A stretch of DNA of 36,249 nt, taken from a virus. Each line of letters starts with the position of its first letter. Position 1 is the stretch's first letter. A program made the translations under genes and the position numbers. A model generated the notes under the pieces. That model ran no database searches. It saw nothing but the letters and a program-made list of their open reading frames with translations, and had not been told where the DNA came from. The DNA is taken from IMG/VR virus record IMGVR_UViG_3300034198_020347, positions 1-36,249 of that record; one strand, 5' to 3'. Positions 8,130 through 33,373 of this stretch are shown piece by piece.

Positions 8130-8762
8130 ATGAAATATTTTAACGAACTACCTTTTTTAACCAATACTGATAGTGGTGGTAACACTTATATTTTAAAAAA
8201 TATATTAATCAGAACAAAGTTAATAACTCAACTTTCTAAAAATCCATTATTGTATTACAAATATGATGTTCAAGAGGGTGATACCCCAGAATTAATTGCT
8301 CACAAATATTATGGTGACCAATATCGTTATTGGATGTTGTTTATGGCCAATGAAATCATGGATCCCCAGGCAGAATGGCCATTAACATCAAAACAATTTG
8401 AGTTATTTCTTAATGATAAGTATGGTGTGGTGGCTGAAGAAACAAATCAAACACCATTAAGTTACACCACATCCACAATTCATCATTACGAAAAAACAAT
8501 TACAACTTTAGATTCTATTTCTAGAACAACAGCCATTAAAACTGTTGAAATCGATTTGGACACATATAACTCAATTATGGCCAAAACAACAACTTCCACA
8601 TTTAATGATGGAACTTCTGTAACTTTAACAGTAGATAAAAAAGCAGTTTCAATTTATGATTATGAAAATCAATTAAATGAATCAAAAAGACACATTAACA
8701 TTATTAAATCCAATTATGCTACGGCTATGGAGACACAGTACCAAAAATTAGTAGGATCATAA
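8130..8762 (+). CDS. gp53: Baseplate wedge protein gp53
   Basis: gp53 family (T4 196 aa, here 210). gp53 binds gp25/gp6/gp7 and ties wedges to the hub. It begins MKYFNELPFLT. The LysM-like stretch seen in T4 gp53 is clear at residues ~43-85: YDVQEGDTPELIAHKYYGD, then QYRYWMLFMANEIMDP and the WPLTSKQF segment. The C-terminal half is helical (YDYENQLNESKRHINIIKSN), as in T4. Sits 3 bases after gp48 and 1 base before gp27. Confidence 0.9.
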   Translation: MKYFNELPFLTNTDSGGNTYILKNILIRTKLITQLSKNPLLYYKYDVQEGDTPELIAHKYYGDQYRYWMLFMANEIMDPQAEWPLTSKQFELFLNDKYGVVAEETNQTPLSYTTSTIHHYEKTITTLDSISRTTAIKTVEIDLDTYNSIMAKTTTSTFNDGTSVTLTVDKKAVSIYDYENQLNESKRHINIIKSNYATAMETQYQKLVGS

Positions 8763-8763
8763 T

Positions 8764-10182: not shown

Positions 10183-10490
10183 TGTCTCATAGTAATAACT
10201 TTCTTGGTACTAAATTTATCTGGTGGACAGGTGAAGTTGAATCAAGAGTTGATCCTTTGACACTTGGTAGATGCCAAGTGAGAATCTTTGGTTGGCACAC
10301 AGATAATAAAAGTCAATTACCTACAAAAGATTTACCTTGGGCTCATCCCATGTTACCAATTAATAATTCACAAACATTTAGTGTTCCACAAGTGGGCGAT
10401 TGGGTGGTAGGTTTTTTTATGGACGGCGAAAGTGCACAGTTTCCAATAATGATGGGTGTTTTGCCTGGTATCACACCAGCAAAAGGATAA
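10182..10490 (+). CDS. gp5: gp5 N-terminal OB-fold domain as a separate gene, 102 aa
   Basis: Corresponds to the N-terminal OB-fold of T4 gp5 (about the first 130 of 575 residues), which links the gp27 hub to the spike: FIWWTGEVESRVDPLTLGRC, QVRIFGWHT, LPWAHPMLP, then VGDWVVGFFMDG and FPIMMGVLPG. The reading frame ends after this fold. Neither a lysozyme nor a beta-helix follows in the same polypeptide. It overlaps gp27 (TAATG) and is followed after 3 bases by a helical protein and then by the spike gene, so the T4 gp5 functions appear split across genes. Confidence 0.9.
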   Translation: MSHSNNFLGTKFIWWTGEVESRVDPLTLGRCQVRIFGWHTDNKSQLPTKDLPWAHPMLPINNSQTFSVPQVGDWVVGFFMDGESAQFPIMMGVLPGITPAKG

Positions 10491-10493
10491 AAT

Positions 10494-11297
10494 ATGGCAA
10501 ATACAGTAATACAATTAACAAATGTAGAAGTTGATAATTATGGAAATGTCATAGAAACTGATATTCCTAATCCTTTATATTTTAATGATAAACTATTTGT
10601 TATCGACCAGCCAACTAGTGTGGCGCCTCAGACCAGAGGTGATATCGAAAATACAGGTATTCAAACCGCCAACAAAAATAAAAGCCATGTTTGTGATACA
10701 ACAATTTATGTTGATAGAGCCGTTGCTTTTGCCAAAGCTACAGGCGGACAATTAGTCCTCGCTATTAGAAATGCTATCAAAGCTATTATGAAAGCTTTAG
10801 GTATTAATCCTGGTTCAAATGGTTTAATTGAATTTCTTAAAAAAGTAAAAGACTATGCCGATGAATTTACACAATGGATGAATGAAATTCAAAATGATAT
10901 TAATGCATTTTTGACTAGTGTTCAAAAAATTCAAGCACTAATTGCTTATATTTTAAGTTTACCTGGTGAATTGATTAAATACTTTTTAGGTTGTATTAAA
11001 GAAGCGTATGCTGAGTTATCTGCTGGATTTTTACAAGTAATTGGTGAACTTGGAAATGTGGGTACAGATGAAAGTAAAGCTTTATCCGATTCTCTTAAAG
11101 CCGCATATGGTTCAGTTAAAACAAGTGTAGCAACTGCAATCAAAACAGCAACTACTGTAACCGCTTTACCAGTAACAACAGTTGGAACATTGTTGAGTCC
11201 AGGAAATTCCACAGTAGCTCAACAACAAGCGGCTGCTAAATCCGCTGGAATACTTTTTAATCCATACAATACAGAACAAACATTTAATAAACCATAA
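10494..11297 (+). CDS. Unrecognised hub-associated protein between OB-fold and spike genes, 267 aa
   Basis: No family recognised. Residues ~1-75 look like beta structure (TVIQLTNVEVDNYGN). Residues ~75-175 are predicted helical with moderately hydrophobic stretches (QLVLAIRNAIKAIMKALGI, KIQALIAYILSLPGELIKYF). The C-terminal ~90 residues are Ala/Thr/Ser-rich, with a short Asn/Pro-rich end (LFNPYNTEQTFNKP). The ribosome site AAAGGATAAA precedes the ATG. The stop overlaps the spike start (TAATG), so the two are probably made in step. It stands where T4 gp5 has its lysozyme domain, but I see no lysozyme-like motif. It may be a hub linker or internal plug; this is speculation. Confidence 0.7.
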   Translation: MANTVIQLTNVEVDNYGNVIETDIPNPLYFNDKLFVIDQPTSVAPQTRGDIENTGIQTANKNKSHVCDTTIYVDRAVAFAKATGGQLVLAIRNAIKAIMKALGINPGSNGLIEFLKKVKDYADEFTQWMNEIQNDINAFLTSVQKIQALIAYILSLPGELIKYFLGCIKEAYAELSAGFLQVIGELGNVGTDESKALSDSLKAAYGSVKTSVATAIKTATTVTALPVTTVGTLLSPGNSTVAQQQAAAKSAGILFNPYNTEQTFNKP

Positions 11298-12136
11298 TGG
11301 CTGACGATCCTTCACAATACGCATGGACACAACCGGTTGATGACACTCCAACCACCAAGTATCCTTATAACAATGTAACACGAACTGCTTCTGGTCACAT
11401 CATGGAATTTGATGATACGCCAGAGGGTGAAAGAATTCGTTTACAACACAGAACCACAACCTATACTGAAATGCGAGCAAACGGCGACCAAGTGGTCAGT
11501 ATTGTAGGTGATGGTTATGAAATTATTGTGGGTAATAAAAATGTTTTAGTAAAAGGACATTGTTCGATTACTATTGAAGGTGATTCTGTTTTAGAAGTAA
11601 AAGGTGATTGTACTCAAAGAATTAAAGGAAATTTCAAACAATTAATTGAAGGTAATTACGAACAAGTAGTAAAAGGTACTTCATCCATCTCATCCGGTGG
11701 AAATATGAGTTTTGGTGTGTTGAATGGTGCCACAGGTAAACTCAGAGTTATGGCTGGAGACCAAATGGTCATCAATAGTGATTTAACTGTTAATGGTGGT
11801 GTTCGTGCAGATTCAATTACATCAGAAGGTGCTATTGCTGCCGGTACAGGTATCACCGCAGGTATTCCTGGTTCGGCCAATCCAATTGCTGGCATAACTA
11901 CATTGGGTGGTATCAGAGCGGGATTCCCTCCAGCACCAACAACACCGGGAGTAATTGAAGCCACACAATTGGTAACCGCACCTGCTGTTATTGGTAGTGT
12001 TATCACTTATGGTGGAGTTTTAATGGATCCTGTGGGAGGTGCTCCGTTTATGAGATTGATTTATGATACCCATTCACACATTGGTAATCAAGGTCGACCA
12101 ACATCTGCACCACTACAACAAATGCCTTTACCTTAA
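11297..12136 (+). CDS. gp5: Baseplate spike: gp5 C-terminal beta-helix as a separate gene, 279 aa
   Basis: Cell-puncturing needle. Residues ~69-132 are eight uninterrupted octapeptides of the T4 gp5 C-domain type (V-x-G-x5), e.g. VKGHCSIT, IEGDSVLE, VKGDCTQR, IKGNFKQL, which build a trimeric beta-helix. The preceding SGHIMEFDDTPEGERIRLQH is the common VgrG/gp5 entry motif. The C-terminal end has IYDTHSHIGNQGRP, with H259-x-H261 matching the HxH iron-binding apex of P2 gpV-type spikes, so the tip may be metal-stabilised without a separate PAAR cap (gp5.4 in T4). No OB-fold or lysozyme is present. It overlaps the 267-aa gene upstream. Confidence 0.88.
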   Translation: MADDPSQYAWTQPVDDTPTTKYPYNNVTRTASGHIMEFDDTPEGERIRLQHRTTTYTEMRANGDQVVSIVGDGYEIIVGNKNVLVKGHCSITIEGDSVLEVKGDCTQRIKGNFKQLIEGNYEQVVKGTSSISSGGNMSFGVLNGATGKLRVMAGDQMVINSDLTVNGGVRADSITSEGAIAAGTGITAGIPGSANPIAGITTLGGIRAGFPPAPTTPGVIEATQLVTAPAVIGSVITYGGVLMDPVGGAPFMRLIYDTHSHIGNQGRPTSAPLQQMPLP

Positions 12137-19580: not shown

Positions 19581-22500
19581 ATGTCTCTGAATTTTAACGT
19601 TGAACCATATTACGATGATTTTGACCCCACTAAAAATTATCATCGTATTCTTTTTAAACCCGGTTATGCGGTCCAAGCTAGAGAGTTAACTCAATCTCAA
19701 ACTATTCTTCAAGACCAAGTTACAAAATTTGCTGATAATATCTTCAAACAAAATTCACCTGTAACTGGTGGCCAGGTTACTACAAATTTTAATTGTTATT
19801 ATATTAAACTTAATGCAACATATAATGGTAGTACTATTGATGTTAATCAATGGAAAAATAAAATTATTCAAAATGCAGACGATACAATTTCTGCACAAGT
19901 TATTGCTGTTGCAGCTGCCACGGGCGGAGATCCTAATACTCTAATTATTTCTTATAAATCAGGTGAAAAATTTGGTGATAATGAAACTATTTACGACAGG
20001 TTTTCAAATTTAAGAGCTCAATCAATTGCAGATAATTCAACCGGTTTAAGTTCTGTTGCTTCTATTGCACAAGGTGTTTTTTACGTTTCTGGTAACTATA
20101 CTAGAGATGATGGTATAGTTATTTCCAATGGAATTTTTGTTCAAGTTAATCCGCAAACTATTCCTTTAGACAAGTATAGCAACACACCATCCAAACGTAT
20201 TGGTTTGAATATTACAGAAACTATCCAAGATTATGTTGGTGATACTTCATTATTGGATCCGGCAATTGGCGCTTCAAACTATCAAGCTCCAGGCGCAGAT
20301 CGTTATTTAATTACTTTAGAATTACAAACTCGTTCTTTTGATTTGGGTGATGATGAAGGATTTGTACAATTGGTTCGTGTTGAAAATGGAAATATTCAAA
20401 AATTAGTAGACGGTTCTGTTTATAATGTAATTGATGATTATTTTGCTAAACGTGATTATGAAACTAACGGCGATTATGTTGTTAATGACTTTAAATTAAC
20501 TCCAAAAACAAATGAAGATTCTGAATTATACACACTAAGTGTTGGTAAAGGTCTTGCTTATGTCCGTGGTTATCGTGTTGATTCTCAGGCACCGGTTGAT
20601 TTAGTTTCTAGTCGTGCAAGAACAACCGAAACAATTACCAATAATCCTGTTTCATTAAATTATGGTAGTTATTTTTATGTCGATAATGTCAATGGCGCTA
20701 ACACATATTTCTTTGATACAACTTCTTATGGACCAGTTGATTTTCATTGTGCTGCAGTAAATAAAGTTATTGTTGAAAATTTAAATTCTTATAATTCAAG
20801 TTTAGTTGCAACCGGATTCATTCGAGCATTAATATATGACCAGGATGATGGCACAGGTTTAGCAAACAATATTGTATATAAAGCTTATGTTTGTGATTTA
20901 CAGAACAATGTGGTAACAGCAAATGCTTTTTTTGCAACAACAAATACAATTACATTCCCAAGTTATTATCCTGATGACGATAATGCTTACGTTGGTGTCA
21001 ATATTTCAATTATTGATGGTACGGATGAGGGAGATTCTAGGGTAATTACAGCTTATAACGGCGCCACTAAAGTTGCAACAGTTAATCAAAATTGGACCGT
21101 AGTGCCGGACACCACATCCGTATTTTCTTTAAATTTTGATATTAAAGATATTGAAACAATTCTCTCTGTTAATAAAGTAAGTTATCCTGCTACAATTAAA
21201 GCAAAAGCTTCCATCTCAAATGAAAGTAAGCGTGGTGGCGTTTTTACTGGTGATACCATTTTGGAAAACCCATTAGTATCAGAATTGTTATTTACCATTG
21301 GTAGTCCTTATGTTTCAACTCTTACGAATACCGCATTTACAACACAACAAGAGTGGCGAAATGTGGCATTTACTTCCACGGGTGGAGGTGTGTCAGCCAC
21401 GCTGGCATATACTGGCGATTATAGTGGAGTAGTCCGTCATTTTGGAACGCCAGGATCAACTCTTTCCGCAAGTCTGGTTGAACAGAATTATACAATCGTT
21501 GTAACTAACCCTGGCGCTTCAACCTTTAATGTGGGTGATGTTGTTCCTTGGACAACTGCTGGTAGAACGGTATCTTTAGATGGTTCGGCTGCAACGGCAA
21601 CACTTAGCGCTACTGACGCTGGTGGTACATTTACTGCTGACATATTGGCCAAAGTCTTTGTTGTGGATGGAGACAACACCAGTCACATTTTAAAACTTAA
21701 ACATTTAATTACTGCGAACACATCTGTTGTTGCTTCTACTGGAACAACAGTAAATACTCATACCACGGTTGACGATACCACACTCACATCTACTGGCCAA
21801 ATTTATATTAATAATGCAGGATTGGTTACGCCGGGAACACCACAAAGTTTGTATCTTTCTGATGTTAAAAGAATTGTTAAAATTTTGGACACAGGATATG
21901 ACTATGTTGTTCCTACTACCAATACTTTAGGTAATTTCAAAAATATTACAAACAATTATATTTTTGATAATGGCCAAAGGGATAATTTTTATGACCATGC
22001 AAGTATCACATTAAAACCTGGCGCACCCCAGCCTAATGGAAATATTCTGGTGTTTGTTGACTACTATCAACATTCTGGTGGTGATGGATTCTTTAGTATT
22101 GCATCTTACGGAAATGAAGAATATCAAAGAATTCCACAATATATTAGTAAACACGGAATAACTTATTCATTAAGAGATTGTTTAGATTTTAGACCATCGA
22201 GAAAAAATGCTCAAGCAAGTTTTATTTTCCGTTATGCAAATTCAGCATCTAATTATGGAATTTTCTTGCCTGTCGATTTAACAAACTTTGATGGTAATTA
22301 CACATATTATTTGGGAAGAAAAGACAAATTAGTTTTAACAAAAGATAAGAGTTTTCAAATTGTTGAAGGAACACCTTCTGTTAATCCAATTTTCCCAGCA
22401 GAGCCTGATGGTGCTTTAGTGATTGCACAACTTGTTCACACACCATATACAGGATATATTCCAACTGAAGCACCTAACGGATATGTTCCAGATTTATCGA

Positions 22501-25500
22501 TACAAAAAGTCAAACATAAACGTTACACAATGCAAGATATTTCAAAACTTGAAGATAGAATCAATCAGGTCGCATACTACACCTCACTAAGTTTATTGGA
22601 ACAAAAAGCAAGTACATTGCAAATTCAAGATGCTTATGGTTTAAATCGTTTCAAAAATGGTATTATGGTGGATGACTTTTCTAGTTATTCTACTGCTGAT
22701 ACTGTAAGTAATGATTATAATGCTACAATTAATCGTAGAACTAAGCAAATGACCGCAACACAGGATGTTAAAAATTTCCCATTAAAAGCTTTGACATTAG
22801 CATACAATATGGGACTACCATCTGCGGCCACTTCAGCTGCATTGCAATATGCTGTTAATAAAGATGGATTTATAAATTATTTTAGTTTACCAATCAGTTC
22901 AACTTCCAATGTAGCAGTTCAAAAATTTGCTTCAAGAACAGTTAATGTTAACCCATTCTCATTTTCAACTCAAGAAGGTGTATTATCATTGTCTCCAAAC
23001 ATGGACAATTGGGTAGATACAAATTATTCACCGGCTTTGTTGATTACTGATCCAGATTTACAAGTATTTCGTGCCAATTCACAAGCAATTAATGTGATGA
23101 CTGCTGGCGACTGGCAAACCATTTCAGGTACCTCAATAACAACAACAACTGGTCCTGTTGAAGGCCACGGCGTTAATTGGTCTCCATTTGGTTTTGTTGG
23201 ATATGTTGCAACAAATACTTATTCATCAACAACCCAAAAACAAACAAATTATTTGGGAGCGTATGACAAGATTGGTAACACTTATTCTATTAATAATGGA
23301 TATATTACTGATATATCTGTGTTGCCATATATTCGACCACAACAAATAGTTGTTAGAGCGGAAAATCTATTATTTAATTCCACATTGGTGAGTTATTTTG
23401 ATAATATTAACGTGGACAAATATATCAGAAAAACTAATATTATTGAATTAACAGGTGTTACTGGTACGTTTAAAGAAAATGATGTAATTGGTTATTATTC
23501 TGGTGGATTATTTACTGGCACCGCACGTATCGTTGGAACATACATTTATCCAGACACAACTAAAGTAAGATTATATGTTGCTGCTGACCAATCCACAACA
23601 TCATATACAATTAACGGTACAATTCAAAATGCTTATTTTGATTCCAATGGTGTATATCAAACATCTGATGCTCAAGGTGCGCTAGATTCTTCTACACACT
23701 ATGGTGGAAGACTTGGCAATGCAATTACCACGACACAATTGCAATTATCATCAATGGCTTCAAATGTTGATGATTTTTACACAGGTAGCACAATTTATAT
23801 TTGTTCTGGTGCCGGCGCTGGCCAAGCTGCACAAATCACATATTATAGTGGCGTAGCTAAAGTGGCCGTCATAAACACAGCAATAACAGTATCTCCTGAT
23901 GACATCTATTCCATTGGCAGTTTCCGTTCAAATGAAGCTGGTTCATTCTTTGGTGTATTTAATTTACCTGAAAATACTTTTCATACGGGACAAAGAGTAT
24001 TGCGTATTGATAATAGCACCGGCGGAAATCAAGCTTCGGCTACAACGTATGCACAAGGTACTTACTATGCTGAAGGTTTACAAACGACATCACAAAGTTT
24101 GAACTTTGGTTCTTCTCCTGCTGGTGCTGCTGGTGTTTTTACACAAACAAACAGTAAAACAACGACAACAAGTGTAACAACATATTCTCCATGGGATCCC
24201 GTTGCGCAAACTTTTATCATTGATGGTTCAAATTATCCTAATGGTATTTTCTTAAATGACATTAAATTATTCTTTAGAACTAAAGCGCAAGATAACTCTC
24301 CTGTTACAATGTCGATTGTTGGTACATTAAATGGATATCCAAATGGACAAATATTGGATCATTCTATTGTTACTGTAACGCCAGACCAAATTAAGATATC
24401 TGAAAATCCACAATACTTAGATCCAAATGCAGCAACAACATTTAAGTTTAATGCTCCAGTTTATATTCAACCAAATGTATTGTATGCTATTATTGTTAAA
24501 TCAAATAGTAGCGGATATTTTTTGTGGACAGCATCAAATGGTGATACGGCAATTTCTTCTTCTGTTAAGAATTTACCAAATGATCCAACGCCAGCAACAA
24601 TTACTAAGATTGCTTCTTCTCCATATGTTGGGGGATTGTTTATTTCTCAAAATGCGCAAACATGGACAGCAGACCAAAATCAAAGTTTAATGTTTGTTGC
24701 AAATCGTGCGGTGTTTAATACATCATTATCACCAACTATTCAGTTTGTTGTACCTAAAAAATTACCACAAAGAACTTTAATTAACCAATCAGTTGATTAT
24801 TATCTAAATGCAAACTCAATATCAACCACAGCAGATGCCGTTTCAAATAATAGTATTTTAGTTGATGCATTTAATATTACAACAACCGATTTTACTCCGT
24901 CAACAACAAATATTCGTTATAATTATGGAGCTACTTTGGTTGGAGGGTCATCAGCTGGTCAAGCAACAGTTACACCAGGTAAATATGGTACATCAGCAAT
25001 CGATAACATTTATTTAAATGATGGTTTGGGTGAACGTGTTCTTGATGCCAATTCGATGACTTCATTCGTTTTGTATACCACATTGAGTTCAAATGATAAT
25101 TCAGTAAGTCCTATCATTTCTGATGCAGGTTTAACAACATACGCCATCACTTGGAATGTTAATAATTGCGAATTATCAAATAGTTTAATCACTCTGACAA
25201 ATGCTGGTGCTGGATATAATGTTAATACAACAAGTGTTATTATTTCTTCGCCAACGGGTCCAAGTGGATCACAAGCATATGCTGCAGCAAACGTTTCACA
25301 AAATGGTGTAATTACTTCTGTTTATATTACTTCACCCGGTTCTGGTTACATTGAAACTCCAACAGTTGAAATTGTTGATGCAAATTCTGCACCAGGAACA
25401 GGAGCAACAGCAATAATTACTGGTGAAACTTCTGCCGGTTCTGGTCCGGCGCTTGCTAAATATGTCACTAAGAAAGTTGTATTGGATAGTGGATTTGATT

Positions 25501-25874
25501 CTGGTGATTTAAATGTTTATTTGACTGCTTATCGTCCTGTAAATACCGATATTCAAGTATATTATAAGATTTTGAACAGATCGGATACTGATACTTTTGA
25601 AAGTAAACCTTGGAAATTAATGACTAAGATAAACAGTTCAGGATCATCTTTCTCTGAAACTCGAAATGATAATTATGAATATGTGTTTGCTCCCGGAACG
25701 GCAGGATTTGCTGATGGATATGTAACTTATACTGGTTCAAATGGACAAACATATACTACATTCAGTCAATTTGCTGTTAAGGTTATTTTAACAACAACAG
25801 ATAAAACTGCTGTGCCTTATGTTACCGACTTACGGGCCATAGCACTTCCCTCCAACGTAAACACAACGGTGTAA
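19581..25874 (+). CDS. Giant baseplate/fibre-attachment protein, DUF4815-like, 2097 aa
   Basis: Largest gene in the window. The N-terminus (MSLNFNVEPYYDDFDPTKNY, HRILFKPGYAVQARELTQSQ, TILQDQVTKFADNIFKQ) matches the DUF4815-type proteins of marine T4-like phages, found directly after gp8 where T4 has gp9/gp10. It probably serves in the baseplate periphery and fibre attachment. The middle is long beta-rich sequence with many Thr/Ser/Asn. A KRYTMQDISKLEDRINQVAY helix near residue 980 is typical of the family. Residues ~1873-1950 carry the Gly-rich module (TNAGAGYNVNTTSVIISSPT, SPGSGYIETPTVEIVD). The strong ribosome site AAAGGAATAAA precedes the ATG. Family placement is from memory of N-terminal motifs; the precise role is inferred. 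Confidence 0.85.
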   Translation: MSLNFNVEPYYDDFDPTKNYHRILFKPGYAVQARELTQSQTILQDQVTKFADNIFKQNSPVTGGQVTTNFNCYYIKLNATYNGSTIDVNQWKNKIIQNADDTISAQVIAVAAATGGDPNTLIISYKSGEKFGDNETIYDRFSNLRAQSIADNSTGLSSVASIAQGVFYVSGNYTRDDGIVISNGIFVQVNPQTIPLDKYSNTPSKRIGLNITETIQDYVGDTSLLDPAIGASNYQAPGADRYLITLELQTRSFDLGDDEGFVQLVRVENGNIQKLVDGSVYNVIDDYFAKRDYETNGDYVVNDFKLTPKTNEDSELYTLSVGKGLAYVRGYRVDSQAPVDLVSSRARTTETITNNPVSLNYGSYFYVDNVNGANTYFFDTTSYGPVDFHCAAVNKVIVENLNSYNSSLVATGFIRALIYDQDDGTGLANNIVYKAYVCDLQNNVVTANAFFATTNTITFPSYYPDDDNAYVGVNISIIDGTDEGDSRVITAYNGATKVATVNQNWTVVPDTTSVFSLNFDIKDIETILSVNKVSYPATIKAKASISNESKRGGVFTGDTILENPLVSELLFTIGSPYVSTLTNTAFTTQQEWRNVAFTSTGGGVSATLAYTGDYSGVVRHFGTPGSTLSASLVEQNYTIVVTNPGASTFNVGDVVPWTTAGRTVSLDGSAATATLSATDAGGTFTADILAKVFVVDGDNTSHILKLKHLITANTSVVASTGTTVNTHTTVDDTTLTSTGQIYINNAGLVTPGTPQSLYLSDVKRIVKILDTGYDYVVPTTNTLGNFKNITNNYIFDNGQRDNFYDHASITLKPGAPQPNGNILVFVDYYQHSGGDGFFSIASYGNEEYQRIPQYISKHGITYSLRDCLDFRPSRKNAQASFIFRYANSASNYGIFLPVDLTNFDGNYTYYLGRKDKLVLTKDKSFQIVEGTPSVNPIFPAEPDGALVIAQLVHTPYTGYIPTEAPNGYVPDLSIQKVKHKRYTMQDISKLEDRINQVAYYTSLSLLEQKASTLQIQDAYGLNRFKNGIMVDDFSSYSTADTVSNDYNATINRRTKQMTATQDVKNFPLKALTLAYNMGLPSAATSAALQYAVNKDGFINYFSLPISSTSNVAVQKFASRTVNVNPFSFSTQEGVLSLSPNMDNWVDTNYSPALLITDPDLQVFRANSQAINVMTAGDWQTISGTSITTTTGPVEGHGVNWSPFGFVGYVATNTYSSTTQKQTNYLGAYDKIGNTYSINNGYITDISVLPYIRPQQIVVRAENLLFNSTLVSYFDNINVDKYIRKTNIIELTGVTGTFKENDVIGYYSGGLFTGTARIVGTYIYPDTTKVRLYVAADQSTTSYTINGTIQNAYFDSNGVYQTSDAQGALDSSTHYGGRLGNAITTTQLQLSSMASNVDDFYTGSTIYICSGAGAGQAAQITYYSGVAKVAVINTAITVSPDDIYSIGSFRSNEAGSFFGVFNLPENTFHTGQRVLRIDNSTGGNQASATTYAQGTYYAEGLQTTSQSLNFGSSPAGAAGVFTQTNSKTTTTSVTTYSPWDPVAQTFIIDGSNYPNGIFLNDIKLFFRTKAQDNSPVTMSIVGTLNGYPNGQILDHSIVTVTPDQIKISENPQYLDPNAATTFKFNAPVYIQPNVLYAIIVKSNSSGYFLWTASNGDTAISSSVKNLPNDPTPATITKIASSPYVGGLFISQNAQTWTADQNQSLMFVANRAVFNTSLSPTIQFVVPKKLPQRTLINQSVDYYLNANSISTTADAVSNNSILVDAFNITTTDFTPSTTNIRYNYGATLVGGSSAGQATVTPGKYGTSAIDNIYLNDGLGERVLDANSMTSFVLYTTLSSNDNSVSPIISDAGLTTYAITWNVNNCELSNSLITLTNAGAGYNVNTTSVIISSPTGPSGSQAYAAANVSQNGVITSVYITSPGSGYIETPTVEIVDANSAPGTGATAIITGETSAGSGPALAKYVTKKVVLDSGFDSGDLNVYLTAYRPVNTDIQVYYKILNRSDTDTFESKPWKLMTKINSSGSSFSETRNDNYEYVFAPGTAGFADGYVTYTGSNGQTYTTFSQFAVKVILTTTDKTAVPYVTDLRAIALPSNVNTTV

Positions 25875-25875
25875 T

Positions 25876-26106
25876 ATGAGTTTAATTCCTGTAATTGATA
25901 CCACATATGTTAGAGATACTAACTCCAGAGCTCTTATTAATCAAGATAAATCTGGTCTTGAACGATATTTGGCCAAACGTAATCGATTGGCTGCTCAAAA
26001 AGAAGAAATAAATACAATCAAGTCGGATATAACAGATATCAAAGGTGATATCACAGAAATTAAACAACTGATGATGACATTAATAAAAAAAGGTTCAAAT
26101 GGCTAA
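25876..26106 (+). CDS. Small coiled-coil protein, 76 aa
   Basis: Short protein with an N-terminal extended part (SLIPVIDTTYVRDTNSRALI) and a C-terminal coiled coil with regular I/L spacing: INTIKSDITDIKGDITEIKQ, then LMMTLIKK. I know similar small proteins at this position in aquatic T4-like phages but no function. The stop overlaps the start of the fibre gene by 8 bases, so translation is coupled. It may be an oligomerising connector between the large baseplate protein and the fibre; that is inference. Confidence 0.75.
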   Translation: MSLIPVIDTTYVRDTNSRALINQDKSGLERYLAKRNRLAAQKEEINTIKSDITDIKGDITEIKQLMMTLIKKGSNG

Positions 26107-29100
26107 TACAGTTTCCCTCCTTAGTTACGCAAACACCTTTGGTGATTGGGTAGTCACAACCAATGCACTAACAAAAGAAAATAATGATTTTGCGGCTAAT
26201 AATTATGTTAAGCCAACAGGAACATTATTTTTGAATTCGTCAACTTTGGGTTTACAAGTTGCTAATTCTGCAATTATTGCTGGTCAATTTCAAGTTCAAG
26301 GTATTGGTTCTTCTGCTTATATCCAAAACAATCTTCGTGTTGATACTCAAGTTTATTTTACAAATACCTCTTTAGGTTTAACCAATTCTGGTCAAGCCAA
26401 TATTGGCGGTCCGTTATTGGCATTAGGTACAGGTACCGGACTTGCAGTTTCAAATAATGCCACTATTGGTGGTTACTTAACTGTTGCCAACACATTATCT
26501 GTTACTGGAGCAACATCATTAGGTAGTACATTAACCATTACGGGTGCCGCAACCGTTGGTAATACATTGGCTGTGGGAGGTACAACTACTGTTACGGGTG
26601 ACGTAAGTGCTACAGGTTCAGGTACATTTGGTAATAATGTAACGGCCGTTAATTCTGTAAAAGCCTACAACTTTGAAGCTGCTAATAATACAACTACAAC
26701 ATATTTGAATGTTCTTACAAATGCTTATGTAAATGGTAGCATGAGTATTGTTGGAACTGCTTATATGAATTCTTTACAATCCAATACAGCAATTGCAGGT
26801 AGTCGTTTAATTGTTGCTAATAATTCATATTTAAATATTGTTCAAGCTAATACTGTTGTTAATACTGCCACATTAAGTGTTGCTGGCGGAACATTTACAA
26901 ATGCTTTACAAGCAAATAGTTCAATTATTACACCAACAATAAATGTTACTGGAACAACTCTTACCAATGCATTAAATTCAAACACTTCAATTAATGCTGT
27001 TACTGTAAATGCTTCTGGTACAACTTATAGTAGTAATATTCAAGCAAACAATTCAGTAAGCGCAGCAAACCTAACTGCTTCTAGTGGTATATTTGGTAAT
27101 AATATTCAAGCAAACACCGGTCTAAGTTCATCAACATTAAGTGTTTCCGGTCCTGCCTATGCTAATACTGTTACAGCAAATACAACAATAACAACACCAA
27201 AAATTACAGTAAATACTTTATTAGATGCCAATAGTGCTTCAGGATTCTTTAATACATTACAAACTACGGGGCAACTAAGTGTTGGTGGCAACTTTGTTAT
27301 TAATGGCGCAACAATTTATAATTCTAACACGTTTACTTTGAATGCTGGTTCTTCTACTGGCCAAATCAGTTATTATACCGTTAATAGAGGTTCCTCTGGT
27401 GCCAATTCAGCAATTCGTTGGAATGAACCACAAAAATATTGGGATATTTTGGATGTAGATAATTCAAATATTTCAACACAATATTCACAAATTTTAACTG
27501 CTAATTTAATTAGCGATTCAATTACTTCAACAAGTTCATCTACGTTGGCATCTTCTAAAGCTGCCAATACATTAAGTAATAATATTGCAACCGCCAATAC
27601 TTCTTTGAAGTCATATGTAGATAACACAATTTCTACAGCAAACACATCATTAAAGTCTTACACGGATAATACTGTTAATACTGCCAACACTTCCATGAAG
27701 TCTTATGTGGATACTGCTAACACTTCCATGAAGTCATATGTAGATAATAATGTTAGCAATCTACAAACACAAATCAGTTCTAATGTTACATCATTACAAT
27801 CACAAATTAGTTCTAATGTAGCTTACATTTCTGGTGTTGATTCTACACAAAATACAAACATTACTGCTGTTAATACGTTTGCTCAGTCTGCTTATAATAA
27901 AGCTAATACGGGATCGGGCACATTCAATGGTACAACCGGTCAAGCTGTTGCCAACAATGGTGTATTTACTTTTTCAAGTAATAATGGTGTAGTTATTTCT
28001 GGCACAGCAAATACTGTTTATGTCAATACATCACAAGACCTAAGAAGCAGTGCGAGTCCAACGTTTGCAGCATTGACATTAACGGCTGCATTGCCAATAT
28101 CACAAGGCGGTACTGGTGCAACATCAGCTGGTTCAGCATTGACTACTTTGCTACCAACGGGAACAACTTCTGGTTATGTGTTGACAACTGGCGGACCAGG
28201 AAATTTCTATTGGGCAGCTGGTGGTAGTGGTGGTAGCGGTGCCACTCCAGGAACAACAATCAATTCAACACAGCTGACCTACACAGGTAATGGATCGGGG
28301 TATTCTTATACAACACCGATATATGTTCCGGGTTCAAACCAATTAAAAGTTTATATTAACGGTGTTCGTCAATTTGCTTCAGAATATACTGAATCAAGTA
28401 ATACCATAGTTACTTTTGCAACACAACCTAAATCTGGTGATGCAATTCTAGTTGAAGTTGATGGTTACACTAGCAATCCTTATTATGCAAATAATATTGC
28501 TTATTCTGTAAATAACTTAATTAGCCCAACTGCAAACACAATACAATTGGCAATTGATGGTTTAGCAGGTAATGTGGCATTTAAAGCAAGTCCATCATTT
28601 ACGGGAATTGCTACTTCTGTAACTCCTTCTACTGAAACAAGTAACACGCAAATTGCAACAACTGCATTTGTTAAAAATGCTTTAAATTCTGGCAATACAT
28701 TTACACATAGTATCACAGGAAGTGCCGGTAGCGTTTCTGCTCTATCATTAACAGGATCAACATTAGCTGCTTCTGTAACAGGATCAAGTTTAACTTCTGT
28801 TGGAACGATTGCTACTGGTACATGGCAAGGTACAACAATTTCTCCAACATATGGTGGAACAGGAGTTAATAATGGTTCAAATACATTAACAATCTCTGGA
28901 AGTTATACATTAAATCAAAACGTAGCTACAGGCGCAAGTCCATCTTTTGTTGGAACAAACTTTACCGGTACTGCTTCAGGATTGAGTATTGGTGGAAATG
29001 CTGCAACATCAAATTCTGCCGTAACTTCTACAACAGCAACAACCGCAAATGCTCTAAACACTTCAAATAACTACCAAGTGGCTTCATTGGGTGTTGGTAC

Positions 29101-29455
29101 TGCTGCATCAGGAACTTCAGGTGAAATTCGTGCTACAAATAATATTACCGCTTACTATTCTGATGACAGACTTAAAACTCGTTTGGGTAATATTGAAAAT
29201 GCATTAGAAAAAGTATTATCACTAAATGGATTCCAATATGAAGCAAATGAAACGGCTCAAGCATTAGGTTATAAAGTTAAACCGGAAGTTGGTCTTTCCG
29301 CACAAGAAGTTCAAAAAGTATTACCTGAAGTTGTTGTGCCTGCACCAATAGATGAAAAATATTTGACTATTCACTATGAAAGAGTTATTCCATTGTTGGT
29401 GGAAGCAATTAAAGAACTTAAAGCAGAAATCGATACACTAAAAGGAAGTAAATAA
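26099..29455 (+). CDS. Long tail fibre with C-terminal S74 autoproteolytic chaperone, 1118 aa
   Basis: Trimeric fibre. The N-terminus (LLSYANTFGDWVVTTNALTK) resembles fibre attachment domains in marine T4-like phages. The shaft has three repeat classes: short VTGxxxxG beta repeats (~120-200), seven 22-residue repeats (214-367), and a coiled-coil-like stretch of four ANTSxKSYxDN units (~499-550). Then comes the fibre motif ISQGGTGATSAGSALTTLLP. The last ~100 residues are a Peptidase S74 intramolecular chaperone: YYSDDRLK with the Ser1021/Lys1026 dyad, GLSAQEVQKVLPEVV, and a final amphipathic helix. Self-cleavage at Tyr1020-Ser1021 would release a 98-aa piece after trimer folding. Followed by a fibre-tip-like gene in a TAATG overlap. 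Confidence 0.92.
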   Translation: MANTVSLLSYANTFGDWVVTTNALTKENNDFAANNYVKPTGTLFLNSSTLGLQVANSAIIAGQFQVQGIGSSAYIQNNLRVDTQVYFTNTSLGLTNSGQANIGGPLLALGTGTGLAVSNNATIGGYLTVANTLSVTGATSLGSTLTITGAATVGNTLAVGGTTTVTGDVSATGSGTFGNNVTAVNSVKAYNFEAANNTTTTYLNVLTNAYVNGSMSIVGTAYMNSLQSNTAIAGSRLIVANNSYLNIVQANTVVNTATLSVAGGTFTNALQANSSIITPTINVTGTTLTNALNSNTSINAVTVNASGTTYSSNIQANNSVSAANLTASSGIFGNNIQANTGLSSSTLSVSGPAYANTVTANTTITTPKITVNTLLDANSASGFFNTLQTTGQLSVGGNFVINGATIYNSNTFTLNAGSSTGQISYYTVNRGSSGANSAIRWNEPQKYWDILDVDNSNISTQYSQILTANLISDSITSTSSSTLASSKAANTLSNNIATANTSLKSYVDNTISTANTSLKSYTDNTVNTANTSMKSYVDTANTSMKSYVDNNVSNLQTQISSNVTSLQSQISSNVAYISGVDSTQNTNITAVNTFAQSAYNKANTGSGTFNGTTGQAVANNGVFTFSSNNGVVISGTANTVYVNTSQDLRSSASPTFAALTLTAALPISQGGTGATSAGSALTTLLPTGTTSGYVLTTGGPGNFYWAAGGSGGSGATPGTTINSTQLTYTGNGSGYSYTTPIYVPGSNQLKVYINGVRQFASEYTESSNTIVTFATQPKSGDAILVEVDGYTSNPYYANNIAYSVNNLISPTANTIQLAIDGLAGNVAFKASPSFTGIATSVTPSTETSNTQIATTAFVKNALNSGNTFTHSITGSAGSVSALSLTGSTLAASVTGSSLTSVGTIATGTWQGTTISPTYGGTGVNNGSNTLTISGSYTLNQNVATGASPSFVGTNFTGTASGLSIGGNAATSNSAVTSTTATTANALNTSNNYQVASLGVGTAASGTSGEIRATNNITAYYSDDRLKTRLGNIENALEKVLSLNGFQYEANETAQALGYKVKPEVGLSAQEVQKVLPEVVVPAPIDEKYLTIHYERVIPLLVEAIKELKAEIDTLKGSK
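26738..27199 (+). repeat. Seven tandem 66-bp (22-residue) fibre-shaft repeats
   Basis: In-frame repeats in the fibre gene, residues 214-367, with consensus x-L-x-V-x-G-x3-x-N-x-L-Q-A-N-x-x-I-x3. Examples: TLSVAGGTFTNALQANSSII and TLSVSGPAYANTVTANTTIT. The period is exactly 22 across all seven units, but DNA identity is moderate, so the duplication is old. Confidence 0.85.
27593..27748 (+). repeat. Four ANTSxKSYxD repeats in the fibre gene
   Basis: Irregularly spaced repeats in the coiled-coil-like part of the shaft: ANTSLKSYVDN, ANTSLKSYTDN, ANTSMKSYVDT, ANTSMKSYVDN. The last two share the DNA word AACACTTCCATGAAGTC, so this duplication is more recent than the 66-bp repeats and is a likely recombination point. 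Confidence 0.8.
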
Positions 29456-30150
29456 TGGTTACAAAAGTCACTCCATCAGTATTAGCGGATACCGCTGTTA
29501 CGGCCGGCACATACGGTGGCGCTACTTCTGCGGCCGTTGTTACGATTGATGCTCAAGGCCGTATTACTTACGCAGCTAATGCTACTCCAAGCTATTCAGC
29601 AAATCAACTTACTGGTTTTATTACTTCGAGTCAAATTACCAATGTTGCAAATACACAAGTTACTGGTTTAATTAACTCAGGACAATTAGCCAACACAGCC
29701 GTTACTGCTGGAACATATGGTGGTAGTTCAGCCATTCCTGTTATTATTATTAATCCACAAGGACAAGTAACATCAGCAGCAAATGCTTCAATTTCTATTC
29801 CAAGTCCAATTTTAGATAATTTGGCAACCTCATATGCAAATACAAGCACAACTGCCATTAATTTAAGTTCTGGTGGTAATGCTTCTGTTTATAAATTGTT
29901 TATTAATAGTTCTACTACACTAACATTTCAAAATTCGCCAGCTACTGCCAATACTGTTTATAGTTTTACTTTGATTACCACAAATATTACTGCAGGAGCG
30001 GCTTTATCATTTGGTAATACAATTAAGTGGGCTGGTGGTAGCACTCCACCAAGAACAACGGCTTTAAATGGAACTGATATTTGGACGTTCTTTATTGACG
30101 GAAGTACAGGAACTTATTACGGATCACTCTCTATTCTCAATGCAAGTTAA
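29455..30150 (+). CDS. Fibre-tip-like structural protein, 231 aa
   Basis: Two copies of a fibre repeat, DTAVTAGTYGGATSAAVVTI and NTAVTAGTYGGSSAIPVIII, each followed by a QGxxTxAAN motif, then a globular C-terminal domain of the phage fibre-head kind (SSTTLTFQNSPATANTVYSF, NTIKWAGGSTPPRTTALNGT, DIWTFFIDGSTGTYYGSL). No chaperone domain is seen. The start overlaps the S74 fibre stop (TAATG). Probably a distal fibre segment or short fibre. Which receptor it binds cannot be told. Confidence 0.8.
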   Translation: MVTKVTPSVLADTAVTAGTYGGATSAAVVTIDAQGRITYAANATPSYSANQLTGFITSSQITNVANTQVTGLINSGQLANTAVTAGTYGGSSAIPVIIINPQGQVTSAANASISIPSPILDNLATSYANTSTTAINLSSGGNASVYKLFINSSTTLTFQNSPATANTVYSFTLITTNITAGAALSFGNTIKWAGGSTPPRTTALNGTDIWTFFIDGSTGTYYGSLSILNAS

Positions 30151-30160
30151 GGATTGAATT

Positions 30161-30802
30161 ATGCCTTTACGTAAAATATTGTTGAGAGAAAAAACAAACG
30201 TAACAACGACCGGTTCAACAACTTTCAATGCTCCCGGCACATATGTACCACCGTACGGAAAAACTGTGGTTAAAATTGGTGGACGTGGTGCTAGTGGAAA
30301 TCCTACAACTGGCGGAAATTATTCTTCAGGTGGTAACGCATATTATAATCCTTATTCTCCCGGATATGATGTTTATGGACCTACTGGCGTTTGGCAAGGA
30401 CAATTTATTGAATTTTATACTTGGGGTGGTGACTACGGATATTCTTATAATGAAGGATTTGGATATAGCCCAACCCCACCATATAGTTATTATGGAAATG
30501 CAATTGGTGGATGTAGTAATGTAAATTATAATTATATTTACACAACATATGGTTATTTGTATTCCAATTCACCATCCGGTGGAAATTATGCAGGAACAAA
30601 TCCAACAAATTACAATCCTACAGTTCCAGGAAACATAGGATCACCATCAAATATTGGCGGTGTTAATTTTCCTGGCGGCGCTATTGGTAGTTTGGCTCCA
30701 ACAGTTGCTGCAACATCAACTGTTGTTAGTTATGAGTCATATCCTACAGGCCTAAGTATTACTGTACCTACGGGAGGTTATGTAACCGTACAGAACATAT
30801 AA
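30161..30802 (+). CDS. Gly/Tyr/Asn-rich putative adhesin, 213 aa
   Basis: Short N-terminal beta segment (TTFNAPGTYVPPYGKTVVKI) and a GGRGASGNP turn as in phage Gly-rich tip proteins. About 130 residues are extremely rich in Gly, Tyr, Asn, Ser and Pro (NYNYIYTTYGYLYSNSPSGG, NPYSPGYDVYGPTG), and the end is a beta segment, LSITVPTGGYVTVQNI. No recognised enzyme motif. Gly-rich motifs alternating with variable aromatic-rich stretches are characteristic of gp38-type adhesins of T-even phages, which bind the receptor at the long-fibre tip. Its position directly after two fibre genes fits, but the sequence itself is not a clear gp38. The ribosome site AAGGA precedes the ATG. Confidence 0.7.
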   Translation: MPLRKILLREKTNVTTTGSTTFNAPGTYVPPYGKTVVKIGGRGASGNPTTGGNYSSGGNAYYNPYSPGYDVYGPTGVWQGQFIEFYTWGGDYGYSYNEGFGYSPTPPYSYYGNAIGGCSNVNYNYIYTTYGYLYSNSPSGGNYAGTNPTNYNPTVPGNIGSPSNIGGVNFPGGAIGSLAPTVAATSTVVSYESYPTGLSITVPTGGYVTVQNI

Positions 30803-30823
30803 TTTATAAAAAGGTGAAAAATT

Positions 30824-31417
30824 ATGAGTAGAAAAATTGATAAACATGTTACTCCCATGTATCCATGGCAAGTTTGGGGTGGAGGATTTACAGAAGAAGA
30901 ATGTGATTTAATTATTCAAGCAGGAGAGCTTTCAGAATTTGAAAAAGCTTCAATTGGTTTAAAAGCTACCAATGAAGTCAATATGTTGGTAAGAAATACC
31001 GATATCGTTTGGATACAACCAAGTGATGATACGAAGTGGATTTTTGAAAGAATGAATGAAATCATTTCAAAAATTAATTTTGATAAGTTTCAAATGGATT
31101 TGGATCGTTTTGATGGATTTCAATATTCAAAATATGGAGTTGATTGTCATTATGACTGGCATACGGACGTAATTGAAAACGGACAAAATGGATTATTCAG
31201 AAAATTATCAATATCATTGATGCTTTCTGATCCAAAAGATTTTAAAGGTGGTAATTTTTTAATAACTGCTAGCAACGAAAGTGGTGCACACAAATTAAAA
31301 TTAAAAAAAGGTGATATTGTAGTATTTTATTCACACTTACACCATAAAGTTTCAAAAGTTACAGAAGGTGAAAGATCCACTCTAGTAACTTGGGCTTTAG
31401 GCGAGAAGATAAAATGA
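30824..31417 (+). CDS. 2-oxoglutarate/Fe(II)-dependent dioxygenase, prolyl-hydroxylase-like, 197 aa
   Basis: PKHD/P4H-type double-stranded beta-helix oxygenase. Iron ligands H113-x-D115 lie in HYDWHTD, the distal ligand is H174 in HLHHKVSKV, and the 2-oxoglutarate-binding R184 lies in EGERSTLVTW, so the active site is complete. The start MSRKIDKHVTPMYPWQVWGG is typical of the family in aquatic phages. It would hydroxylate a protein or small molecule using O2 and 2-oxoglutarate; the substrate is unknown. It stands inside the fibre cluster, right after the Gly/Tyr-rich adhesin, and overlaps the next gene by ATGA. A ribosome site AAAGGTG precedes it. Confidence 0.93.
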   Translation: MSRKIDKHVTPMYPWQVWGGGFTEEECDLIIQAGELSEFEKASIGLKATNEVNMLVRNTDIVWIQPSDDTKWIFERMNEIISKINFDKFQMDLDRFDGFQYSKYGVDCHYDWHTDVIENGQNGLFRKLSISLMLSDPKDFKGGNFLITASNESGAHKLKLKKGDIVVFYSHLHHKVSKVTEGERSTLVTWALGEKIK

Positions 31418-32145
31418 AATTAATACCTTTTTTTAAATCCGAATTAATTGAGTTTTATTGTTTAGAACAATATTATGACGTAATAGAAAAACCAGTACCA
31501 GCATATAAAATGATGCCAGATTGGTTTAAAAGAATGTCTCCAACGGTAGATGACAAATCTAAAAGAGATAGTTTTGGTTCTGAAATATTTACGGCAAAAA
31601 AATGTATGCCTTTATTGGATGCAATGTCGGCCGGATTTATTATTCCTTTAGGTGGTGACGTTAATGTTAGAGTTAATGATAAAGGTTCATTGATTGAAGC
31701 AACATCTGGACCTTTTGCAAAATTTGCTGAGTTTCATGATAAGGAACAGTTAGGTGGAAAAATGTCTCCAACTTATCCTGGACCAGCAGTTAAATTTATT
31801 AATTATTGGGTAGTTAAAACTGCTCCTGGTTATTCGGCGTTGTTTATACCACCAATTAATCATATTGAACCTAGATTTACTTGTTTAGGCGGATTAGTTG
31901 ATACTGATCGGTACAGCAAAGAGGTTAATTTTCCTGCCATTTGGCATATGAAAAATTTTGACGGTGTATTAAAAGCAGGAACACCTTTAGTAACTTGTAT
32001 ACCAGTTAAAAGAGCAGATTTGCCAAGACAAGCTCCTGTAAGAGTTATGTCTGAAAAAGAACGTAAATATATTGATTTATTGCGAAGAAAACAAGATACA
32101 AAACGTAGTGTTTATACTGATGATTTGAGAGAACCTAGAAAATGA
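31414..32145 (+). CDS. Paralogous protein A of unknown function next to the oxygenase, 243 aa
   Basis: Start taken at 31414 (MKLIPFFKSELIEFYCLEQY) because its ATG overlaps the oxygenase stop (ATGA); the earlier in-frame ATG at 31390 would only add 8 residues lying inside the oxygenase. Beta-rich, without signal peptide or membrane segment. Residue pattern shared with the next gene: a P-x-W-(F/T)-K element, a KKCMPLLDAMSAGFIIPL-type stretch, GYSALFIPP, and a C-terminal KAGTPLVTCIPVKR. I have seen such proteins beside 2OG oxygenases in marine T4-like phages, but know no function. Confidence 0.8.
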   Translation: MKLIPFFKSELIEFYCLEQYYDVIEKPVPAYKMMPDWFKRMSPTVDDKSKRDSFGSEIFTAKKCMPLLDAMSAGFIIPLGGDVNVRVNDKGSLIEATSGPFAKFAEFHDKEQLGGKMSPTYPGPAVKFINYWVVKTAPGYSALFIPPINHIEPRFTCLGGLVDTDRYSKEVNFPAIWHMKNFDGVLKAGTPLVTCIPVKRADLPRQAPVRVMSEKERKYIDLLRRKQDTKRSVYTDDLREPRK

Positions 32146-32906
32146 AAATATGTACGTGGTTAAAAAATGTATTTGAAGAAAAACCTACTATTAAATTTAA
32201 ATCGTTTGTTGGAAATAGTGCAGTTAGTAATCCGGTATTACCGGCAAATAAAATAAGACCAGAATGGACAAAAAATCAAGAACCTGAATATAAATTTCAG
32301 AGATGTCCTGGTATGTTAGATTTCTCACATGCGGGTTATATTATTACAGCACATTCTGATATACACATTAAAGCCAACAAGTCTGGCGTAGTGTTTAATG
32401 TAGACTTACAAGGACCTTATTCGGAACAAGATAGAAAATTATTACAAGCAAAACCTTTTGATTATAGAATGGTTGCAGGTATGGCACCTATTGCTGATGG
32501 CGTTAAAAAAGTTGCTTATAAAATACCTTTGCCTTGGTCTGTATATACAAAAAAAGGTTATTCGGCTTATGTTTTGCCGGTGTTAAATAATTCAGATTAT
32601 TTGGATAAATTATTTGTCTATCCAGGAATAGTAGATTATGAAGATTATCACACAATTAATTTTGTAATTTCTCCATTAAAAGAGTGTGAGTTTGTTATAC
32701 CGGCAGGAACACCGTTATTACAAGTAATACCATTTAAAAGAGAAAAAATTACTGCTGAGTGTGGTAAAGCAACACAAGATGAATATGATGAACACGCCTT
32801 TAGTATGCCAACAAGAGCAATAAAAGGTTATTATAGAAGATTTTTAAGTAAAAGAAAAATATATACTATGGAGTGTCCTTATGAACACCCACAATATAAA
32901 AAGTAA
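32142..32906 (+). CDS. Paralogous protein B of unknown function, 254 aa
   Basis: Diverged copy of the preceding protein with the same order of elements: RPEWTKNQ, then FQRCPGMLDFSHAGYIITAH, KKGYSAYVLPVLN, and PAGTPLLQVIPFKREK (compare KAGTPLVTCIPVKR in the first copy). The last ~45 residues are basic (TRAIKGYYRRFLSKRKIYTM). The start overlaps the previous stop as ATGA, so the oxygenase and the pair form one translational unit. No catalytic motif recognised. Could be a cofactor- or substrate-presenting partner of the oxygenase, or a fibre-processing factor; both are guesses. Confidence 0.8.
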   Translation: MKICTWLKNVFEEKPTIKFKSFVGNSAVSNPVLPANKIRPEWTKNQEPEYKFQRCPGMLDFSHAGYIITAHSDIHIKANKSGVVFNVDLQGPYSEQDRKLLQAKPFDYRMVAGMAPIADGVKKVAYKIPLPWSVYTKKGYSAYVLPVLNNSDYLDKLFVYPGIVDYEDYHTINFVISPLKECEFVIPAGTPLLQVIPFKREKITAECGKATQDEYDEHAFSMPTRAIKGYYRRFLSKRKIYTMECPYEHPQYKK

Positions 32907-32917
32907 AAGGTTAGAAA

Positions 32918-33373
32918 ATGTCAAATAAAAAATGGTACTATCTAGTTAACTATAAAGATAAAGTTGCTATTGAATACACACAAATTCCAGCAGTTTGGGG
33001 AAATATTAGTGGTATGTCAGATTTGAGTGATAGTATGTTAAGATTATTAGATTGGGCTAAACATTCAGACGTTGGCTTTATACCAGAAGATGTTGCAAAA
33101 CAACAAAATATATCTCAATCCAGTATGGATAGAGTTAAAGCAATAGGAAGAGAAGTTGCTTTGGTACAATTAAGAACCAAAAGAGATTTATTGTTAAAAG
33201 AATCTGATGCCGCTGTAGTTATTGACCGTTGGAACACTTATAATGATTCTAAGAAAACGACCATTTCAAATTATAGACAGGCATTAAGAGATTTGACAAA
33301 TACAACTGATCCTTTTAATCCTACATTTCCTGTAATTCCTACTGAATTGGCCTATTTAAACGCTTTTGTCTAA
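32918..33373 (+). CDS. Tail-fibre assembly chaperone-like protein, 151 aa
   Basis: The centre and C-terminus match the phage tail (fibre) assembly chaperone type: LRTKRDLLLKESDAAVVIDR, then NTYNDSKKTTISNYRQALRD and LTNTTDPFNPTFPVIP. The RxKRDxLLxxSD and YRQALRDL elements are the family hallmarks. Such proteins help fibre trimers fold but are usually absent from the virion. Ribosome site AAAAGG. Last gene of the 26.5-kb rightward operon; a stem-loop follows the stop. Confidence 0.82.
   Translation: MSNKKWYYLVNYKDKVAIEYTQIPAVWGNISGMSDLSDSMLRLLDWAKHSDVGFIPEDVAKQQNISQSSMDRVKAIGREVALVQLRTKRDLLLKESDAAVVIDRWNTYNDSKKTTISNYRQALRDLTNTTDPFNPTFPVIPTELAYLNAFV

Follow-up and report, generated by a model that had tools for sequence, protein, structure and literature searches.

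Why would a phage encode an oxygenase and a pair of related proteins in the middle of its tail-fibre genes? The question is raised by the virus record IMGVR_UViG_3300034198_020347 of IMG/VR, which was analysed over its full length of 36,249 nucleotides (positions 1 to 36,249), and this whole stretch is referred to here as the window. In surroundings of T4-like tail and baseplate genes, the + strand of this aquatic phage carries a row of five consecutive genes at 30161–33373, which code for a repeat-rich fibre-like protein, a 2-oxoglutarate (2OG)-Fe(II) oxygenase (OX), two proteins named A and B, and a chaperone of tail assembly. We consider it probable that OX, A and B constitute an operon dedicated to maturing the fibre that is encoded just upstream, because the genes are in fixed linkage, OX has an Fe/2OG site and a predicted fold of the prolyl 4-hydroxylase (P4H) type, a glycosyltransferase of family PF11397 accompanies the operon in relatives, and a natural control, the phage L088, has a changed fibre and no such operon. 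By this account, residues in the repeats of the phage's own fibre would be hydroxylated by OX and, in some relatives, glycosylated afterwards.

Gene order and its conservation

The genes of the locus and the two fibre-like genes that precede them are as follows:

26099–29455, + strand: long tail-fibre-like protein with a C-terminal Peptidase_S74 chaperone (PF13884, E 2e-11; phrog_5668/1699, tail fibre), context
29455–30150, + strand: small tail-fibre-like protein (phrog_36881, E 3e-11; phrog_9017, tail fibre, E 5e-6), context
30161–30802, + strand: repeat-rich fibre/adhesin-like protein of 213 aa, the presumed substrate (open reading frame; homologues alignable at both termini; composition)
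30824–31417, + strand: OX, 2OG-Fe(II) oxygenase with a predicted prolyl-hydroxylase fold (PF13640; H113, D115, H174, R184; fold model)
31414–32145, + strand: protein A, phrog_7084/DUF6065-like, predicted dUTPase (beta-clip) fold without dUTPase motifs (profile and model; ATGA overlap with OX)
32142–32906, + strand: protein B, paralogue of A (phrog_7084; ATGA overlap with A)
32918–33373, + strand: tail fibre assembly chaperone (PF16778, 35.3 bits at a cut-off of 26.6, E 1e-8; phrog_8716)

All five reading frames from the repeat-rich protein to the chaperone are open at the positions where the preliminary description had placed them, and its account of an oxygenase behind a Gly/Tyr/Pro/Asn-rich protein, followed by two related proteins and a fibre chaperone, was borne out by the reading frames, Pfam and PHROG. 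The translational coupling that it proposed agrees with the ATGA overlaps at the OX/A and A/B junctions, both of which can be read directly in the sequence, with the TTG listed at 31390 being an alternative upstream start of A. That the two related proteins are genuinely paralogous is shown by BLASTP (27% identity, E 3e-17) and by their shared match to phrog_7084.

A viral collection of uncultured phages was scanned with A, B, the fibre N-terminus and the chaperone, using narrower alignments for A and B, as a 13-sequence A/B alignment was too divergent. When genotypes were defined by clustering A at 90% identity, 50 were obtained, 33 of them with B. A is present in 33/33 B-carrying genotypes, and in 32 of these OX is the gene directly before A; the contig of the 33rd (L068) stops at A and has fibre and OX at its other end (L093). 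Wherever the sequence extends that far, the gene before OX codes for a low-complexity fibre-like protein, the sole exception being L019/L020. The loci belong to phages of very different size, including several contigs of 160–270 kb. Two search routes in which OX, A and B did not serve as queries, one starting from the fibre N-terminus and the other from the chaperone, recovered the same order, and the order is therefore not a search artefact; it recurs in other phages much more often than chance would allow. What departed from it on these routes was L088, together with five arrays of two fibres, where either the operon goes with the second fibre or the locus breaks off beforehand; L190 and L191, both distant matches of the chaperone, represent unrelated fibre loci. 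The supposed co-occurrence of A and B with the oxygenase and a Gly-rich fibre holds within this operon type, where both are always found with OX, and OX, apart from L019/L020, behind a repeat-rich fibre, but it does not extend to the more distant A-like proteins of haloviruses and bacteria, which occur without an oxygenase beside them.

A PF11397 N-acetylglucosamine (GlcNAc) glycosyltransferase gene directly follows B in 10 of the 33 genotypes and is not found after B in the window. Scores for this family are 61–115 bits overall at a cut-off of 21, and 83.9–115.4 bits in L019, L024, L026 and L050. In L012, a close relative of the window, the PF11397 gene lies elsewhere in the genome. A tblastn search with the PF11397 protein in 50,697 phage records gave no match. 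The family includes the enzymes that add GlcNAc to the hydroxyproline of Skp1.

Further enzymes occur at some of these loci. A Sulfotransfer_2 protein is encoded between fibre and OX in L019/L020, where PF11397 follows B, and may add an extra decoration step. In two-fibre arrays (L070–L076, L127–L132), one fibre is accompanied by a second OX and a PF11397 protein, the other by OX-A-B. In L055, the gene directly after B (8753–9418) codes for another 2OG oxygenase, 2OG-FeII_Oxy_5, that differs from OX.

The oxygenase and its two partner proteins

OX matches PF13640 with 61 bits (curated cut-off 27) and phrog_61 with E 2.5e-33, and its residues H113, D115, H174 and R184, which are the expected iron (HxD...H) and 2OG-binding Arg residues, are invariant in 23 OX homologues. 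The structural model (predicted local distance difference test score, pLDDT, 93) adopts the double-stranded beta-helix fold of P4H and prolyl hydroxylase domain (PHD) enzymes. Its closest match in the PDB is the Pseudomonas putida P4H (Z 22.1, root-mean-square deviation 2.8 over 180 residues), further matches include HIF prolyl hydroxylases, the Chlorella-virus collagen prolyl hydroxylase (Z 20.3), an algal P4H (Z 20.1) and PhyA, which acts on Skp1 (Z 18.1), and nearly all of the top 50 matches are prolyl hydroxylases (Z 17–22). These data show that OX has a complete Fe/2OG site and, in the model, a prolyl-hydroxylase-type fold. The modelled fold suggests Pro as the target, but a fold shared with prolyl hydroxylases does not fix the residue that is modified.

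The phrog_7084 profile matches A with E 9e-57 and B with E 1e-31, and with DUF6065 (PF19541, cut-off 26.6 bits) A falls short at 24.7 bits and B gives no match. The model of A, based on 61 sequences (pLDDT 95), has a dUTPase-type fold, and in a realignment to the PDB every listed row is a dUTPase with a Z of about 10 (VIA, Z 10.4; Foldseek, E 1.7e-4). The canonical dUTPase motifs 1, 3, 4 and 5 are found in 0/61 sequences and the motif 2 pattern in 2/61, a sequence-profile search of the solved structures in the PDB with A returned no dUTPase, and B reaches 13.8 bits with the Pfam dUTPase family, below the cut-off of 22. Large insertions further distinguish A from the dUTPase family, which it resembles in its predicted fold. 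As the catalytic motifs are missing, working dUTPases were rejected as an interpretation of A and B, and from the model we infer a scaffold or binding role. Known dUTPases are homotrimers, and tail fibres are usually trimeric as well, which makes a fibre-binding role of A and B plausible.

In isolated phages, the best match of A has about 37% identity and comes from haloviruses, and no fibre-OX-A-B operon was found there at close identity. The halovirus A-like proteins are encoded alone, without an oxygenase, beside tail genes, and halovirus and S-RIM4 relatives lie near ribonucleotide reductase. Some of the cyanophage relatives belong to clusters beside the fibre genes that also contain tryptophan halogenases and numerous 2OG oxygenases, and others lie elsewhere. 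There are also alphaproteobacterial relatives; no oxygenase or halogenase was seen near the bacterial relatives in the loci read, and PF19541 gave no match in the pair of bacterial genomes from which the closest homologues come. Since such distant relatives live outside the operon, the A/B family is older than the operon itself. The alphaproteobacterial genes (L078/L079, L135–L143) are repeatedly found beside a tetratricopeptide-repeat protein and transporter-type genes, the closest bacterial relatives included, which may reflect a separate bacterial function.

Fibre repeats and a phage without the operon

The 213-aa protein of the window consists of 17% Gly, 13% Tyr, 12% Thr, 9% Asn and 9% Pro. 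It has no Pfam or PHROG match, and thus no known adhesin family was matched, but the position of its gene after the distal fibre gene and before the chaperone gene fits a tail-fibre adhesin. It may be the adhesin that the preliminary description named, and modification could alter the chemistry of the fibre tip, as was also suggested there. The homologues share a conserved N-terminus (EKTN..TTFNAPG..PYGKTVV..GGRGASGN) and a conserved C-terminus, with a variable middle of Gly, Asn, Pro, Tyr, Thr and Ser. The repeats of OX-adjacent fibres are rich in [Y/F]-N, Y-N-P and P-G-N and are of the type [Y/F]-N-x-P / P-G-N: in 26 fibre proteins, YNP was observed 336 times (24 expected) and PGN 264 times (31 expected). 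Asn amounts to 9–20% in 28 fibres linked to the OX-A-B module, which is always more than in the other proteins of the same phage (3.8–7.4%), also at a GC content of 0.55.

L088 is the one fibre that was found without OX-A-B. The flanking genes on both sides match those of L179/L182, and its 79-kb record has no phrog_61 or phrog_7084 match anywhere. At aligned positions, the L088 fibre has Y-T-P or Y-S-P, G-G-E and P-G-V where its relatives have Y-N-P, G-G-N and P-G-N; YNP is found at 0/8 positions in L088 and at 12/17 in the two nearest relatives. Asn is reduced to 4.6% versus 12% in these two relatives (p 0.0004, with repeat residues that are not independent) and versus 7.2% in the other proteins of L088, and Pro is unchanged. 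GC content was rejected as the cause of the Asn loss, as it is 0.40 and the background Asn is 7.2%. A tblastn search with the L088 fibre in 50,697 phage records gave no match. This sequence comparison points to Asn either as the residue that is modified or as a component of the recognized motif, and because Pro is unchanged in L088, the claim that Pro is the only target was dropped.

We propose that OX, using O2 and 2-oxoglutarate, would carry out a post-translational hydroxylation of residues that recur in the low-complexity central part of the fibre, the target being Pro if the fold of OX is the guide and Asn if L088 is. A and B, perhaps as trimers or heterotrimers like dUTPases, could hold or present the trimeric fibre, or could bind the modified repeat. 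In the relatives with PF11397 directly after B, and in L012 with the gene elsewhere, a sugar would cap the new hydroxyl group, as in the Skp1 PhyA/Gnt1 system of protists. The fibre may thereby become hydrophilic, carrying hydroxyl groups or sugars, and its stability or receptor binding may change. It is a more tentative proposal that this amounts to a complete O2-dependent fibre-maturation pathway, in which Asn/Pro hydroxylation, A and B as non-catalytic substrate clamps of the dUTPase fold, and, in many phages, a cap added by an enzyme of the GlcNAc-transferase family act together, and in which the repeats evolve with the enzymes.

Elsewhere in the window, a 2097-aa protein is encoded just before the fibre genes (19581–25874); it matches phrog_358 (E 0), to which no function is assigned. 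The gp5-type baseplate hub/lysozyme (10182–12136) is split into separate genes for an N-terminal part (10182–10490) and a later part (11297–12136), with an unmatched 267-aa open reading frame in between. ARAGORN called a tRNA-Trp at 28807–28896 on the same strand, inside the long tail-fibre gene, which is probably a false positive.

Competing explanations and known systems

Several observations weigh against fibre maturation. Co-localization alone does not make a neighbour the substrate, and it is from such indirect evidence that we infer both the hydroxylation and its target. The fibre of the window is short, with just 2 YNP and 4 PG. The natural control is a single phage with non-independent repeat residues, and it points to Asn while the fold points to Pro. 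The OX sequences of the operon do not form one clean clade in the tree, and a strictly single origin of them is unsupported (3 label changes, 18.8 in shuffles). More distant oxygenases of the OX family in Melnitz and CRP-810 lie away from fibre genes, so that a tie of the oxygenase homologues to fibre genes does not hold as a universal rule. Finally, the module occurs without PF11397 in four related jumbo-size records (226–272 kb) and in two others (93–184 kb). Glycosylation is therefore not part of the core, and the PF11397 gene is accessory, yet it fits a hydroxylated substrate.

The alternatives differ in what OX is thought to act on. If A and B were the point of the operon, as virion or fibre-tip proteins on a trimeric dUTPase scaffold that are themselves substrate or partner of OX, their constant association with OX, their pairing as paralogues, the dUTPase fold, which is homotrimeric in known dUTPases, and the relatives in cyanophage tail-fibre or oxygenase/halogenase clusters and near halovirus tail genes would be accounted for; we nevertheless regard this as unlikely, as neither repeats nor any other hint of dense modification are seen in A or B, and bacterial relatives exist without tails or an oxygenase. 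A host protein such as elongation factor Tu (EF-Tu) could also be the target, with the position beside the fibre being a late-gene hot spot for extra genes. The top structural match of OX is indeed the P. putida P4H crystallized with EF-Tu, which that enzyme hydroxylates (PMC7864055), and the more distant phage oxygenases away from fibres would agree with a host target, but the fibre-OX-A-B order is fixed in phages that differ greatly in size and kind, the fibre composition is changed in the phage without the module, and some phages have a second OX and PF11397 gene with a second fibre, and a host target is quite unlikely in our view.

The predicted fold of A and B might instead point to nucleotide metabolism or DNA modification, with dUTPase-like enzymes, OX acting on DNA and no link to the fibre. 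A weak match of OX to Oxygenase-NA (PF09859, 22.8 bits, below the cut-off) and the ribonucleotide reductase genes near the halovirus and S-RIM4 relatives speak for it; however, four dUTPase motifs are missing in 61/61 sequences and motif 2 in 59/61, no profile match to a solved dUTPase was obtained, the best matches of OX are protein hydroxylases, and the operon always lies in a fibre locus, which makes such a role very improbable. We give hardly any credence to the idea that the enzymes drain or sense 2-oxoglutarate or oxygen in the host metabolism: although such a control was proposed for cyanophage 2OG oxygenases in general (PMC3037559), it leaves the gene order and the PF11397 gene unexplained. 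All four alternatives explain the fixed gene order less well than fibre modification.

Fibre modification by OX-A-B probably belongs to a known kind of process, the phage-encoded modification of virion proteins, and the operon itself is apparently undescribed: in the literature searched, which covers part of the field, we found no description of it, no paper that mentions DUF6065, and none that combines bacteriophage, prolyl hydroxylase, virion and oxoglutarate. A hydroxylated fibre of a bacterial virus would, to our knowledge, be the first. 2OG oxygenases occur commonly in phages and await an explanation (PMC3037559, PMC12774648). In marine phages they rank among the most widespread of such unexplained enzymes, and the roles suggested for them range from the control of 2OG or nitrogen and the repair of DNA to the decoration of capsules and secondary metabolism (PMC3037559, PMC7824862). 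For one subgroup there is now a fixed genomic partner as a candidate substrate. Two further partners have a predicted fold, a second enzyme step is possible, and a phage that naturally lacks the module has a changed fibre. If our interpretation is true, phage fibres would be a new class of hydroxylated, possibly glycosylated proteins, and their chemistry would depend on oxygen.

Among phages, the nearest parallel is seen in the cyanophages Syn9 (L002), P-TIM40 (L004), S-CREM1 (L005) and S-RIM44 (L007), where several 2OG oxygenases, a phrog_7084 protein and either one or two tryptophan halogenases are encoded downstream of the tail-fibre/assembly genes; these clusters differ in having halogenases, whose Trp_halogenase identity was confirmed, one phrog_7084 protein rather than two, and no repeat fibre directly before OX. 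The halogenase neighbourhood suggests fibre proteins as candidate natural halogenase substrates. A halogenase/oxygenase cluster of jumbo cyanophages has been interpreted as capsule decoration or secondary metabolism (PMC7824862). With regard to collagen, bacteria and viruses were said to be without collagen prolyl hydroxylases in a study of phage-borne collagen (PMC3368898). The enzyme vCPH of the Chlorella virus PBCV-1, which like the algal P4H resembles OX in its fold, is a virus-encoded P4H with Pro/Gly-rich candidate substrates; it comes from a eukaryotic virus, and the phage fibre is not a Gly-X-Y collagen. In the Skp1 pathway of Dictyostelium and Toxoplasma, the PHD-type 2OG oxygenase PhyA makes a hydroxyproline on which the GlcNAc transferase Gnt1 builds (PMC11570480, PMC7864055). 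Our system differs from it, as the genes are those of a phage and lie beside a virion fibre instead of acting on a ubiquitin-ligase subunit, two extra proteins of the predicted dUTPase fold are present, PF11397 does not follow B in the window, and the two enzymes would only presumably share a substrate; what both have in common is an oxygenase that is structurally like PhyA and, in the 10 related operons, a PF11397 gene after B.

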